Below, in pieces: positions 1,265 through 55,305 of a DNA stretch of 64,000 nt. The notes under the pieces were generated by a model, which did no database searches, was not told where the DNA came from, and saw nothing but the letters and a program-made list of their open reading frames with translations. Origin of the DNA: a virus; the IMG/VR virus record IMGVR_UViG_3300030104_002385, positions 28,750-92,749 of that record. One strand, 5' to 3'. Positions within the stretch are counted from its first letter, which is position 1. Each line of letters begins with the position of its first letter. Made by a program: the position numbers and the translations under genes.

Positions 1265-2491
1265 ATGGCTAAACAATCTCTAGGTCTTGGTACTGCAGCA
1301 AACGACAATACAGGGGATACTCTGAGAGTTGGTGGTGACAAGATAAATGATAACTTTAATGAGATTTACAGTGCTATTGGTAACGGTACAACATTAACCC
1401 TCAGCGTTACTAACCCTGCTGTTGGTCAGGTGTTGCGTTATAATGGTTCTAGTTTTCTCCCGTCGGATTATTCCAATTTAACATCAGCTTTAGATGTTAA
1501 TGGAAATTCCATTATTTCTAGTACCAATGGCAATATAGTAATTGCTCCTAATGGGACTGGAGATGTAACAATATCTAATGGTGGTGTTACTAACACATTT
1601 GAAGGTAGTGATGGAACAATAGATTTACCAACAAAGGTAAAGTATAAGAATGAGTATGCTAGTGTTGGTGCAGCTCCTGCTGCAGCGACATACACGGGAT
1701 ATTTCTTTACTGTAGATGGTGATGACAATCCATATGTAAACATTAATATTACTGCTGGCGGTGCTGGTGATGTTAGGGCAAAGGTTGCAACAGAATATTC
1801 TAGTGTTGATCTTTTATCAGACGTTGATACTACAACGGCTGCTCCTACTAATAACCAAGTTTTGAAATGGGATTCTACTGCTAGTAAGTGGAAACCTGGA
1901 GATGATTCTGCTGGTATTTCTTCTATTAACCTTTGGTCATCTATTGTAGGTGATACTGGTACAACAACAGCAAATAGTCAGACAGACACATTAACTATTG
2001 CAGGTGGCACAAATATAACTACTGCAATTTCTGGAGATACTTGTACAATCAACTTCTCTGGAACTTTAACAACTACACTTGCTGCTTTAACAGATACTGA
2101 TACTTCTAGTGTAGTACAAGGTGATTCATTATTCTATAATGGAACTGGTTGGATTGTAACTAGAAGTCCAATTATATGGTGGGAAGTAAATGCAAGTGGT
2201 TCATCTGATTATACTATCAATGGACCTGGTTTTGCATCTCCTCAAAGTGATCCTACTTTGTATGTTCAAAGAGGATTTACTTATGCATTTGACAATACTA
2301 TACAATCTACTGCACATCCTTTTAGAATACAAAGTACTCAAGGATTGAGTGGTACTCCATATACAGATGGTCAATCTGGTAGTGGAACTGCGGTTCTTTA
2401 TTGGACTGTACCTATGAATGCTCCAAGCACACTTTACTATCAATGTACAATCCATGCTGCGATGCAAGGACAAATTAACGTTGTGAGTTAA
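1265..2491 (+). CDS. Tail-fibre-like protein with C-terminal cupredoxin-like domain
   Basis: The N-terminus (residues 1-40, a G-TAANDN-TGD segment and DKINDNFNEIY) is the kind of adaptor found at the start of cyanophage and T4-like fibre proteins. The middle is beta-rich and low in complexity. Residues about 308-408 form a domain that ends in a cupredoxin signature: H351 in an AHPF context, then C394, H397 and M400 in YYQCTIHAAM. His, Cys, His and Met are the type-1 copper ligands of plastocyanin and azurin; the C-x2-H-x2-M spacing is tighter than in plastocyanin. The 1461-residue protein next door carries the same spacing. Whether metal is bound is inference. It is probably a virion protein expressed late with its neighbours. 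Confidence 0.75.
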   Translation: MAKQSLGLGTAANDNTGDTLRVGGDKINDNFNEIYSAIGNGTTLTLSVTNPAVGQVLRYNGSSFLPSDYSNLTSALDVNGNSIISSTNGNIVIAPNGTGDVTISNGGVTNTFEGSDGTIDLPTKVKYKNEYASVGAAPAAATYTGYFFTVDGDDNPYVNINITAGGAGDVRAKVATEYSSVDLLSDVDTTTAAPTNNQVLKWDSTASKWKPGDDSAGISSINLWSSIVGDTGTTTANSQTDTLTIAGGTNITTAISGDTCTINFSGTLTTTLAALTDTDTSSVVQGDSLFYNGTGWIVTRSPIIWWEVNASGSSDYTINGPGFASPQSDPTLYVQRGFTYAFDNTIQSTAHPFRIQSTQGLSGTPYTDGQSGSGTAVLYWTVPMNAPSTLYYQCTIHAAMQGQINVVS

Positions 2492-2494
2492 TAA

Positions 2495-5400
2495 ATGGCA
2501 AGAACTGTTTCTGGAAGTGGTGCTGTAATCGAACCAATTTTTGATGAAGTATTTGGTGTTCGTGCAGTCAAAGTAGTCAACGGAGGTACTGGATATACAT
2601 CAGCAGACCCTCCAAGGTTGACGGTGACGGGTTGTGGTACTCCGACTCAAGAAGCATTATTATATCCTATTATAGATCAGGATTCTGGTAGAATAATCCA
2701 TGTACGTGTTCTTAATAGAGGTAAGGGATACGATCCTTTAAGATTGGGAATTTATCCTCAAGCAGAAACTCCCAATGTAGTAGATTCATTTGATATTAAT
2801 AAGGTTTGGCAATCACATCCAAATTCCCCTACTACTGGTTTATTTGCTTTAAATACTGCTACACCACCACAAAAGACTGATAGATTAAGGATACAATCTG
2901 ATAACCATCCCAAACCCACTCCTACACAGGCTGAGAGGGTTCCTGGTGGTGGTCCTTTAGTTGATAGGGCATTTGATCAGACTTTCATTTATAGAGGTGG
3001 TAAAGACGTTCCTAATCCTGGTACTAGAGAAGCACAACCAGATAAGGTTACAGGTATTTTAGCGAATGGTGGTTTATTACATACTCCAGAATGGGGTCCA
3101 GATGGTAATCCATTTCCAGGATTTGCTCTTGATAGTGTAAAGAACAGTTACGTAAAGAATAATACAACATATGATGCTGTAGTTGAGAATAATATTAGTT
3201 ATTATCAATCAAGTAGAGTTCTTAATGAATTTGCACTTAAAAATGGTACTTTTGAATTTGGTAACTTAATCCAATTTACATGGTATGTCAAAGTAGAATT
3301 TGATAATATCATGTTAACAGTTACTAATATTGATGAATCTATAGGAACTATTGAAGTAGGAAGAACTGTTGATGTAATTAGTGGAAATGGTAGAGGTGAA
3401 GTTGCAAAAATTGTTAGAGATGGTAGTAATAATATTACTAGAATATATCTTAGACAAACAAGTGGAACTTTTAATGATCAAGATTTAGTTTTAGGATCAA
3501 CAGGATTTGGATTTAAAATTAATACAGTCCCTACATTATTACCCAACGGTATTTTTTATATCGATTTTGGTACAGATTCTGATGAATTTGGTCCATTTAT
3601 TTCAGGAACATATTACTTTGCACCACAAAATATTAAGGTTCAAAGAAATTATTTAATTATTTGGAACCAATCAGATAGCAGTAATGGTATAACTGGTACT
3701 CATACTCAAGGACACCCTATGCAGTTTAGCATAACTGCTGATGGTACATTAAATGGTGGTACTCTTTATTACAACAGCACTTCTTTAGATTATCCTGCTG
3801 CGGATTATGAGAATGAGTTCCAACCATTATTGATAATGAATGCTGATGAAAATACTAATCGCATTTATTATTTTTGTAAGCATCACAGATATATGTCTGG
3901 ATATGCTGGAGATGAGGGATATATTACGTTTGAGGCAGAGATCGATGACGACCCATTAGCTAATGATTATTACGTAACTGACTTTTTTGCAACTGGTCCT
4001 GATTATTCAAGACATGCTGATGGACATTCCAAGATTGTTGGTATGTCATTTGATGGATATCCTATTTACGGACCTTATGGATATACCTCTACTGGTACTG
4101 TTGCTAAAGAAGTATCTGGATTTAGATTTAAAACAACTGGGGAACTTGATGGTGGTAGACCAGAGGTAATTACAGCATCTACAGAAACATTTGTTGTAAC
4201 TGTTTCTAGTGGTAAGTTCTTATTTGGTGGTACTACTCCACCATTCTTAGATTTGAAGAGAGGGAAAACATATGTCTTCCAGCAAAATGATGCTAGTAAT
4301 GATAATGAAGCACTACTAATATCATCTACTGAAGATGGTTGGCATGCTGGTGTAGCAGGTACTGCATCGTACGTTTACACTACAGGAGTTAAGTATTACT
4401 TAGAAAGTGTAGAAAAAACATATACTGAATACTTAGCTGGATTTGATACAGCTACTGCAAGAGAATTAAGGTTTACAGTACCTTCAAATTCTATCACTGC
4501 ATTATATACATTTGCTGAAACAACGGCATCTGTTGGTGTAAGAACTGTTCAGGAAGGTTATATTCTTGGTGATGTAGTTCAGGATAATATTTGGGATAAT
4601 TCATCTACTTGGGATAGTGGTACTGCTTATGCTCAATATGCTACTGTAAGAAACTCATCTGGAATAATTTATGAAGCAACTGCTGCTATTAGTAGTGGTG
4701 GATCACAACCTGTACATACAAGTGGCACTACTAGTAATTGGAAATATGTGCAACCTGTTGGAACTTTAGATGAGCATAATGGTAAGTTTGGAGTAACTCC
4801 TGAGTATCCAAATGGAACGTATGCTTACTTTATGACAGAGGATGGTGCAGGTACTCCTGTTTTTCCTTATGTTATTGGTCCAAGATTTTACGGAGTTCCT
4901 TTATTTGAAGGCGATACACCTCCTGAAGCAAACAATGTATTCCCTGCTGGTGCAGAAGGTGAGGTTGTTTTAAGTACCGATAATCCAGGTACGATTGCTT
5001 ACGTTAAGATGACCCAAAAGGGTGATAACTATTTTGGTTCTGCAACTGCAAGAATTTTAGGTGGTACAGGAACAGGTGCTACAGGAAGTCCAACAGTTCA
5101 AACAATTACGGGTCTTTCACTACTTAGTGGTGGTAGGCAATATGCATCTCCCCCAACATTAATCTTTGAAGGTGGTGGTGGATCTGGTGCAGAAGGTGCT
5201 GCTGCGATTGATACTTTAGGTAAGGTTACTTCAATATCTGTTGTAGATAGTGGTGAATATTATCAAGAACCTCCTTACATTTTAATCAATGGTGGTGGAG
5301 GTTTAGGTGCAAAAGCAATTGCAACTATTTCTCAAGGTTCTATTAGTTCTATAACAGTTACTGATCAAGGTAAAGGATATACTTCTCAACCATCTGTTAT

Positions 5401-6880
5401 ATTCACAAAACTCGTTAATCTTAAACGTAAGACTAGAGCAAGACAGGCATATAACTCAGGTGCAAATTATCTTACTGGTCTTGTTAAGGATATGACTGCA
5501 TCGGATACAACAGTATTTGTTGATTCTACTGATGCATATCCTGGTTCTGGAAAACTTATTATTAATAAGGAAACTATATCATATACAAGTAAAGCAGCTG
5601 GTAAATTCTCTGGTATAACTAGAGGTGTTAATTTTAATTACGACCAGAGAGTTATACTTGATGCTGGACAGAACGCAGAAGATGGTAGTTCAAACTACAA
5701 ATTCAAGGTAGGTGACCGTGTTATTAGAAGAGTTGAAAATGCTGGTAACAAGATTGCTAAAGTATATGATTGGGATTCTTCTACTAGAGAGTTACTTGTT
5801 ACATTTGAAGTTGATGAATTAGCATTTATTGATGCTGGTATTCCATCTACAGAAGATGCTATTGTACAGTTTGATGGTGGTGTTGCTGATAGTGCTAATT
5901 CAGCATATCAACCACACACTATTCTTGATTTACAAAATAGTGTAATAACAACTTTAACAGTACCTATTTCGACTTTACAGGATAAAGCATTCCAAGATAT
6001 TTTGCCTACATCAATAGGTGATGGTATTCCTGACTTAGTAAATACATCAACAGATTATGAAAATCAGATACAATTAGATGGTGGTATCTTTAGTTCACTT
6101 TACGGTATTGAAGAAACATTGGGTGGTCAGAATACAACTTTATTCCAAGTTGGAGATAGTATTAAAGATGGTGATATACCATTTAAGTATGCGACTATAT
6201 CAACTGCAGGTGGATTGAGTGATGGTGTAGAACATACTGCACTTACTACATTATATCTTGATAACGCCACTGGTAATGGTGGTAGTTATAACGTTAATGA
6301 AATTGTTACTGGTTCTATATCTGGAGTTCAAGGAACAGTTGTTTCTTGGGATACTACAAATCAAATATTGGTTCTTAAAGCAGTAACACCATTTAACACT
6401 GGTAATATAAATGTTGGAGTTAATGGTTTACTTTATGAGTTCTCTCACAATTCCAGTATAATTGATTTTATCATTCAAAATCCAGGAACTAACTATAGTG
6501 CAATTCCGCTTTTAGAAATACAAGGACTATTATCACCTACAAGTGAAACCAGAAATGCGGAAACGATAAACTGGGGTGGTCCTATGGGTGATATACAGGC
6601 AACTGGTACTGCAGTAATGACGATTGCAGGAGACCAAGTTGCATCAATCAATATAACTAATGGTGGTTATGGATATAAGAAAACTATAGATAGTCAGTAT
6701 TATGATCATCCATATGTTTTATTTACGGATAGTTCTAATAATATACTAGATGGTAAATTTAATAGCACTTCAAGCGGTGCTATAGCACAGGCAGTATTGG
6801 GTGGAGAACTCTGCACAGGTACTGGTGGTGCTTCTTATAGAATTAAAAGAATTGAGTATCAAACACAGGTTCGTGCGTAA
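2495..6880 (+). CDS. Giant virion protein with cupredoxin-like and YHYH domains
   Basis: This 1461-residue protein starts 3 bases after the previous stop. Residues about 365-480 look cupredoxin-like, with H407 (GHPMQF), C461, H464 and M467. Directly after it, residues 507-530 hold a DGHSK...FDGYPIYGPYGY segment, the hallmark of YHYH-domain proteins. Around residues 580-680 lies a second cupredoxin-like copy whose ligand positions are lost (ALYTFAETTASVG at 669-681). From about residue 830 there are several G-x-GY-x-x-P repeats, then near residue 990 a module that ends in GITRG and recurs in gp15. The protein is a probable tail or fibre component; no signal peptide or membrane segment is seen. 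Identification of the domains is from motifs only. Confidence 0.75.
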   Translation: MARTVSGSGAVIEPIFDEVFGVRAVKVVNGGTGYTSADPPRLTVTGCGTPTQEALLYPIIDQDSGRIIHVRVLNRGKGYDPLRLGIYPQAETPNVVDSFDINKVWQSHPNSPTTGLFALNTATPPQKTDRLRIQSDNHPKPTPTQAERVPGGGPLVDRAFDQTFIYRGGKDVPNPGTREAQPDKVTGILANGGLLHTPEWGPDGNPFPGFALDSVKNSYVKNNTTYDAVVENNISYYQSSRVLNEFALKNGTFEFGNLIQFTWYVKVEFDNIMLTVTNIDESIGTIEVGRTVDVISGNGRGEVAKIVRDGSNNITRIYLRQTSGTFNDQDLVLGSTGFGFKINTVPTLLPNGIFYIDFGTDSDEFGPFISGTYYFAPQNIKVQRNYLIIWNQSDSSNGITGTHTQGHPMQFSITADGTLNGGTLYYNSTSLDYPAADYENEFQPLLIMNADENTNRIYYFCKHHRYMSGYAGDEGYITFEAEIDDDPLANDYYVTDFFATGPDYSRHADGHSKIVGMSFDGYPIYGPYGYTSTGTVAKEVSGFRFKTTGELDGGRPEVITASTETFVVTVSSGKFLFGGTTPPFLDLKRGKTYVFQQNDASNDNEALLISSTEDGWHAGVAGTASYVYTTGVKYYLESVEKTYTEYLAGFDTATARELRFTVPSNSITALYTFAETTASVGVRTVQEGYILGDVVQDNIWDNSSTWDSGTAYAQYATVRNSSGIIYEATAAISSGGSQPVHTSGTTSNWKYVQPVGTLDEHNGKFGVTPEYPNGTYAYFMTEDGAGTPVFPYVIGPRFYGVPLFEGDTPPEANNVFPAGAEGEVVLSTDNPGTIAYVKMTQKGDNYFGSATARILGGTGTGATGSPTVQTITGLSLLSGGRQYASPPTLIFEGGGGSGAEGAAAIDTLGKVTSISVVDSGEYYQEPPYILINGGGGLGAKAIATISQGSISSITVTDQGKGYTSQPSVIFTKLVNLKRKTRARQAYNSGANYLTGLVKDMTASDTTVFVDSTDAYPGSGKLIINKETISYTSKAAGKFSGITRGVNFNYDQRVILDAGQNAEDGSSNYKFKVGDRVIRRVENAGNKIAKVYDWDSSTRELLVTFEVDELAFIDAGIPSTEDAIVQFDGGVADSANSAYQPHTILDLQNSVITTLTVPISTLQDKAFQDILPTSIGDGIPDLVNTSTDYENQIQLDGGIFSSLYGIEETLGGQNTTLFQVGDSIKDGDIPFKYATISTAGGLSDGVEHTALTTLYLDNATGNGGSYNVNEIVTGSISGVQGTVVSWDTTNQILVLKAVTPFNTGNINVGVNGLLYEFSHNSSIIDFIIQNPGTNYSAIPLLEIQGLLSPTSETRNAETINWGGPMGDIQATGTAVMTIAGDQVASINITNGGYGYKKTIDSQYYDHPYVLFTDSSNNILDGKFNSTSSGAIAQAVLGGELCTGTGGASYRIKRIEYQTQVRA

Positions 6881-54231: not shown

Positions 54232-55305
54232 ATGCCAATCAAGTCTGAAGTTACTGCTCAAGAAATCATTTCTTATTTAAAGGATAAGCATGCTCCTAGC
54301 AATGAAGTTGATACTATTGCATTAAGAGCTGCTGGAAACAAATTTAAGATTTCTTATCCTACTGTTCTTAAACGTCTTAAGAAATTTAAGAAGGGTAGAG
54401 GCACTTGGGACTTGACTGCATTGGATATTGAAAAATCATATAAAGCACCTGCTGCTGAACCCGTCACACAAAAAGTTTCTTATGTTCCAGAAAGTGATCC
54501 GAACTATGTACCCTTCGGGAATGCCCCGTCTCTCAAGAAGGTTATTAATTCTGGACAGTTTTACCCTGTGTTTATTACTGGTCTTAGTGGTAATGGTAAG
54601 ACATTGGGGGTAGAGCAAACATGTGCATCTCTAAATAGAGAATTGATACGTGTTAACATTACAATAGAAACAGATGAAGATGATCTTATCGGGGGTTTCC
54701 GTCTTGTCAATGGTGACACCGTTTGGCACAACGGACCAGTTGTTGAAGCTCTCGACAGAGGGGCTGTCTTGCTCCTTGACGAAATCGACCTTGCCTCAAA
54801 CAAGATACTCTGTCTCCAGTCCGTCCTTGAAGGTAAAGGAATTTTCCTTAAAAAGACTGGAAGATACGTCAAACCAGCAGCAGGGTTCACAGTTATTGCC
54901 ACCGCAAATACTAAAGGTAAAGGTTCAGACGACGGAAGATTTGTTGGAACTAACGTGCTCAACGAAGCCTTCCTTGAAAGGTTCCCAATAACCTTTGAGC
55001 AAGAGTATCCATCACCTGTTATTGAACAAAAGATACTAAAGAATGTTGGATGTGAATTGACATTTGCTGAAAATCTGGTAAAATGGGCAGGAGTGATACG
55101 TAAAACATTCTTCGATGGAGGAGTGGATGAAGTAATCACAACACGTCGTCTAGTACACATTGCACAAGCATACACCATCTTTGGTGATCGTTTACAAGCA
55201 ATAACAAACTGTGTAAATAGATTTGATGATGATACTAAGCAATCATTCTTAGATCTTTATACTAAGGTTGACGCTGGTGAAGACACTACCGAGGAGAATT
55301 ATTAA
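54232..55305 (+). CDS. cobS: MoxR/CobS-like AAA+ ATPase
   Basis: A 357-residue AAA+ protein annotated cobS in related cyanophages. Residues 1-65 form a helix-turn-helix-like N-domain (SEVTAQEIISYLKDKHAPSN, then LKRLKKFKKGRG). Walker A is GLSGNGKT (117-124), Walker B is AVLLLDEIDLA (about 178-188), and the ATANTKGKGSDDGRF sensor-1 region is typical of MoxR and CobS. In cobalamin synthesis CobS works with CobT, a VWA protein, and CobN. The phage carries a VWA partner at 49959 but no CobN. A MoxR-type chaperone or unfoldase role is an equally good reading. Confidence 0.85.
   Translation: MPIKSEVTAQEIISYLKDKHAPSNEVDTIALRAAGNKFKISYPTVLKRLKKFKKGRGTWDLTALDIEKSYKAPAAEPVTQKVSYVPESDPNYVPFGNAPSLKKVINSGQFYPVFITGLSGNGKTLGVEQTCASLNRELIRVNITIETDEDDLIGGFRLVNGDTVWHNGPVVEALDRGAVLLLDEIDLASNKILCLQSVLEGKGIFLKKTGRYVKPAAGFTVIATANTKGKGSDDGRFVGTNVLNEAFLERFPITFEQEYPSPVIEQKILKNVGCELTFAENLVKWAGVIRKTFFDGGVDEVITTRRLVHIAQAYTIFGDRLQAITNCVNRFDDDTKQSFLDLYTKVDAGEDTTEENY

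Follow-up and report, generated by a model that had tools for sequence, protein, structure and literature searches.

Organization of the gp9 and gp10 locus

The analysed window is a stretch of 64,000 nucleotides covering bases 28750-92749 of a 92,749-base IMG/VR virus record (IMGVR_UViG_3300030104_002385). The record belongs to a T4-like cyanophage-type myovirus: its gp9 and gp10-position proteins are about 60-78% identical to those of the closest Synechococcus and Prochlorococcus phages and are followed by gp8 and the usual terminase, sheath, portal, head, and replication genes. Upstream of gp9, an open frame of 7,974 aa (record positions 6053-29974, ending at window position 1228; phrog_701 / 18802 virion protein) carries its own PF14240 (YHYH) domain in its N-terminal fifth. 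Further along, a porphyrin/cobalamin biosynthesis-type ATPase (phrog_249), an auxiliary metabolic gene, lies at window 54232-55305.

The first of the two large structural proteins (1265..2491, + strand, 408 aa) is a homologue of gp9, the baseplate wedge / tail-fibre connector (phrog_677, E 4.8e-197). Its N-terminal wedge-binding module scores above the cut-off of PF07880 T4_gp9_10_N (E 4.2e-10; 40.4 bits, cut-off 25) and matches the T4 gp9 and gp10 chains in the PDB (1pdp/1qex; T4 gp9 at E 4.7e-6). Detectable sequence similarity to T4 gp9 (288 aa), which contains no C-x2-H-x2-M, is confined to this N-terminus. The C-terminal domain of the window protein (residues 302-408; 2168..2488, +) harbors the putative ligands H351 (2315-2317), C394 (2444-2446), H397 (2453-2455), and M400 (2462-2464). 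Thus, a T4-type socket protein appears to have a cupredoxin at its fibre end.

The second protein (2495..6880, + strand, 1461 aa) is a gp10-position baseplate wedge protein (phrog_708, E 0) that contains a PF14240 domain (63.5 bits, cut-off 25). Its first cupredoxin-like domain, termed d1 (residues 355-480; 3557..3934, +), carries H407 (3713-3715), C461 (3875-3877), H464 (3884-3886), and M467 (3893-3895). All eight residues named in the preliminary description, which proposed cupredoxin-like domains with complete H-C-H-M sets in both proteins, are found exactly at the positions given there. C-x2-H-x2-M occurs once in each protein and in no other ORF of 60 aa or more of the 92.7-kb contig. In composition-preserving shuffles, this motif appeared in 0 of 20,000 (gp9) and in 0.015% (gp10), while the full HP...YxCxxHxxM pattern appeared in none, and we reject a chance origin of the motif.

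Predicted cupredoxin fold of the gp9 C-terminus and gp10 d1

AlphaFold2 prediction of gp9 from 48 aligned rows yields a pLDDT of about 83-93 for residues 300-408 and low confidence for much of the remaining protein. Foldseek comparison of the model with the PDB returns rusticyanin (E 4.8e-5), three-domain nitrite reductase, amicyanin, pseudoazurin, and laccases, with a probability of about 1.00 for the leading hits. The 50 listed matches are all cupredoxins or multicopper oxidases. Interestingly, the list includes nitrite reductase and azurin variants engineered with the loops CTPHPFM, which is that of amicyanin, or CAAHAAM, the same C-x2-H-x2-M spacing as CTIHAAM in gp9.

For gp10, the evidence rests more on sequence profiles than on the model. 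The prediction for residues 345-800 is moderate for d1 and for the third copy (d3, see below) and poor for the YHYH part, and its best hits are SufI, nitrite reductase, laccases, and the AcoP cupredoxin, none of which reaches E<=0.001. In contrast, profile-profile comparison (hhalign) joins d1 to the domain family at 96.7% probability with H, C, H, and M in register, against 0.1-0.2% for an unrelated gp9 control. Comparisons of the narrow alignments alone were inconclusive (22%; 1.5% for one alignment against Copper-bind), and single-sequence PDB searches of both domains gave only noise; only the profile built from diverse copies resolved the relationship. This profile matches 48 PDB sequences at E<=1, all but one of them cupredoxin-fold copper proteins, with plastocyanin at the top (2.6e-4) and the ligand columns in register with Prochlorothrix plastocyanin. 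The clustering of the four residues around one site is inferred from this alignment.

Neither the gp9 nor the gp10 rows reach the curated cut-off of PF00127 (Copper-bind), which is one library's threshold rather than a biochemical criterion. Close bacterial relatives of the same family pass it in a genome search (24.0 and 24.5 bits, cut-off 21.2), although one of them scored just under it in hmmscan (20.2 against 21.2), so the shortfall reads as divergence below threshold. Recent capture of a host or phage plastocyanin gene (petE) is unlikely, as the loop spacing is amicyanin-like rather than plastocyanin-like and PF00127 finds nothing in this contig.

Conservation of the ligand set

Counting the window and 80 related IMG/VR loci, H351, C394, H397, and M400 of gp9 are each conserved in 81 of 81 rows, and the gp10 set is conserved in 72/72, 70/70, 70/70, and 69/70 of the rows covering it. 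However, the gp9 domain is highly conserved throughout (about 50 of 109 columns invariant), so that ligand invariance within gp9 alone is weak evidence. We therefore aligned 16 copies from different proteins and phages, which are 24-76% identical to gp9. Here, the only invariant columns are H, P, Y, C, H, and M, and the chance that all four ligands fall among these six columns under random placement is 3.5e-6. Among 300 copies collected from all loci by a profile, 272 keep all four ligands, and most of the others are partial matches of the ligand-less d3. A few differ only at Met (S-RIM4 and the loci L036 and L113), and two entries are the halves of one intact domain split by a long loop. Since the collecting profile was built on members with the complete set, this tally favors intact sites.

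This near all-or-none pattern bears on the possibility that the domain works as an empty stable fold, in which the ligands are kept because they pack the core and no metal is bound in nature. Such a reading would agree with the retention of the fold in d3 and with the folding of virion proteins in the cytoplasm, where free copper is scarce. Nevertheless, four chemically different residues are among the only six conserved across the 16 diverse copies and are mostly lost together rather than piecemeal, and a lone Cys beside two His and a Met is an unlikely thing to keep without a metal. We consider this explanation improbable.

A third, ligand-less copy interrupts the YHYH domain

The PF14240 domain of gp10 is split in two. 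Its first half (residues 505-547; 4007..4135, +; profile positions 90-133, E 4.7e-6) contains the core H-x3-H-S-K...DGYPIYGPYGY, in which H511 and D520 are invariant in 68 of 68 rows, and its second half (residues 735-783; 4697..4843, +) matches profile positions 135-183. The preliminary description assigned a YHYH motif to residues 507-530; this is right at the family level, but the stretch is the PF14240 core without the literal letters. No YHYH string is present in gp10 or in the copy of the 7,974-aa protein, whereas it is present in cellular members. Iyer and colleagues predicted YHYH to be a tail-associated metal-dependent hydrolase with a Zn site (PMC7824862), without mention of cupredoxins or copper.

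The gap is occupied by d3 (residues 560-695; 4172..4579, +). As proposed in the preliminary description, this third copy is real and has lost the ligands: it matches the domain family at 97.1% probability, against 0.1% for an unrelated control, and the pLDDT of most of its blocks is 76-95. Remarkably, the copy at the same place in phage ACG-2014d, to which d3 is 32% identical, is complete and reads ...DAHPLALS...YFCRYHGLMG, while the window copy aligned to it has E, A, T, and V at the four ligand positions. ACG-2014d in turn shows no d1 in the stretch read (2292-4282 of its locus). Thus, each of these two lineages keeps one complete site in gp10, although two cases are only suggestive.

The insertion point (profile 133/135; gp10 residues 548-736, window 4136-4702) also holds a different, ricin-B-like insert in a SAR86 YHYH protein, indicating that this loop tolerates insertions and looks like a general insertion site. 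Downstream of d3, a 36-residue W..Y..V...Y...P...W stretch (residues 698-733, window about 4586-4693) resembles CBM5/12. It is present in the window and in two further loci (L042 and L033) but absent from most relatives, and a carbohydrate-binding reading obtained no Pfam support.

The module is mobile among outer tail proteins

The same module appears in the T7-like Prochlorococcus phage P-GSP1, the long tail fibre of S-SCSM1, S-TIM5, the tail fibre of the pelagiphage Baldr, and a subtilase-type protein of S-H9-1, as well as in at least 600 IMG/VR stretches. Moreover, it is found in 21 bacterial or MAG contigs, mostly of marine groups such as SAR86, SAR116, Woeseiaceae, and Actinomarina, there partly in secreted cadherin, Big_9, and RTX-type proteins. 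Two Woeseiaceae loci, for example, encode a 627-629 aa cadherin-like protein, in one case seen to contain a peptidase-like HEYFH stretch, that ends in the same copper-type domain. Some of the MAG contigs may be phage, as one of them also shows a weak match to the gp9 N-terminus. The module belongs to an unnamed cupredoxin family whose members are currently annotated as "hypothetical" or named after the carrier protein.

In a phylogenetic tree, the gp9 copies group with tail-fibre copies (100/100), apart from d1 and d3 of gp10, which join only weakly (96/77). Consequently, duplication between the neighbouring genes gp9 and gp10 is not supported, and gene-level duplication, which the preliminary description inferred from the third copy, is supported at most within gp10, and weakly.

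Possible roles of the putative metal site

Taken together, we interpret the gp9 C-terminus, with strong support from the predicted fold, and gp10 d1, mainly by profile, as cupredoxin domains with a complete type-1-like mononuclear metal site (His, Cys, His, Met, amicyanin-length ligand loop), used by marine phages as a building block of the outer tail at the baseplate rim, tail-fibre socket, and fibres. Copper binding itself is inferred rather than shown. In the mechanism that we favor with moderate confidence, the protein folds empty in the host cytoplasm, which contains little free copper, picks up copper after assembly or at lysis, and the bound metal locks the small β-barrel where long tail fibres join the baseplate, while the surface of the module makes the protein-protein or host-surface contact. 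Cupredoxins are well-known copper proteins, but we found no earlier report of one in a phage virion among the open-access papers searched. In contrast to amicyanin, plastocyanin, and rusticyanin, whose ligand set and order it shares, the module is a domain of large virion proteins rather than a soluble electron carrier.

Zinc or iron might be bound instead of copper, since Zn can occupy type-1 sites in recombinant cupredoxins and the neighbouring YHYH domain has been predicted to bind Zn (PMC7824862). However, the Cys-Met pair and the amicyanin spacing favor copper, and the relatives in the PDB are copper proteins, rendering this alternative unlikely. Redox activity, in which Cu(I)/Cu(II) switching or electron exchange with surface components senses arrival at a cell and helps to trigger the baseplate, appears less likely still. 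Although the ligand set is that of electron-transfer cupredoxins and T4 gp9 is annotated as a trigger for sheath contraction, no redox partner domain was recognized in gp9 or gp10, the carrier proteins are structural or adhesive, and d3 shows that the fold is useful without the metal.

The main rival is a direct part of copper, or another metal, in host recognition, for example by bridging to a surface ligand or by docking to a metal-uptake receptor, as a copper counterpart of the iron "Trojan/Ferrojan horse" idea. In T4, gp9 is where long tail fibres attach, and the module also occurs in tail fibres and in bacterial adhesin-like proteins. Further, iron-binding HxH tail fibres (T4 gp37, alterophage R22Y) have been proposed for marine phages (PMC11705849), albeit with octahedral HxH sites in a trimeric fibre rather than a His2-Cys-Met site in a β-barrel. 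On the other hand, the domain is among the most conserved parts of gp9, unlike typical receptor-binding tips that vary between phages, and it occurs in phages of different hosts, so we regard this role as possible but doubtful. Marine tailed phages as a group might carry copper in their tails through this mobile module, with the metal site needed for attachment or triggering, which would make virions copper proteins and a small pool of organically bound copper in the sea.

Beyond these copper proteins, 30 of 31 gp9 C-domains match the plant At5g54830-like domain PF25489 over residues 353-407 (window 2321-2485), below its cut-off (best E 1.4e-4); this plant domain may be an unrecognized cupredoxin relative.
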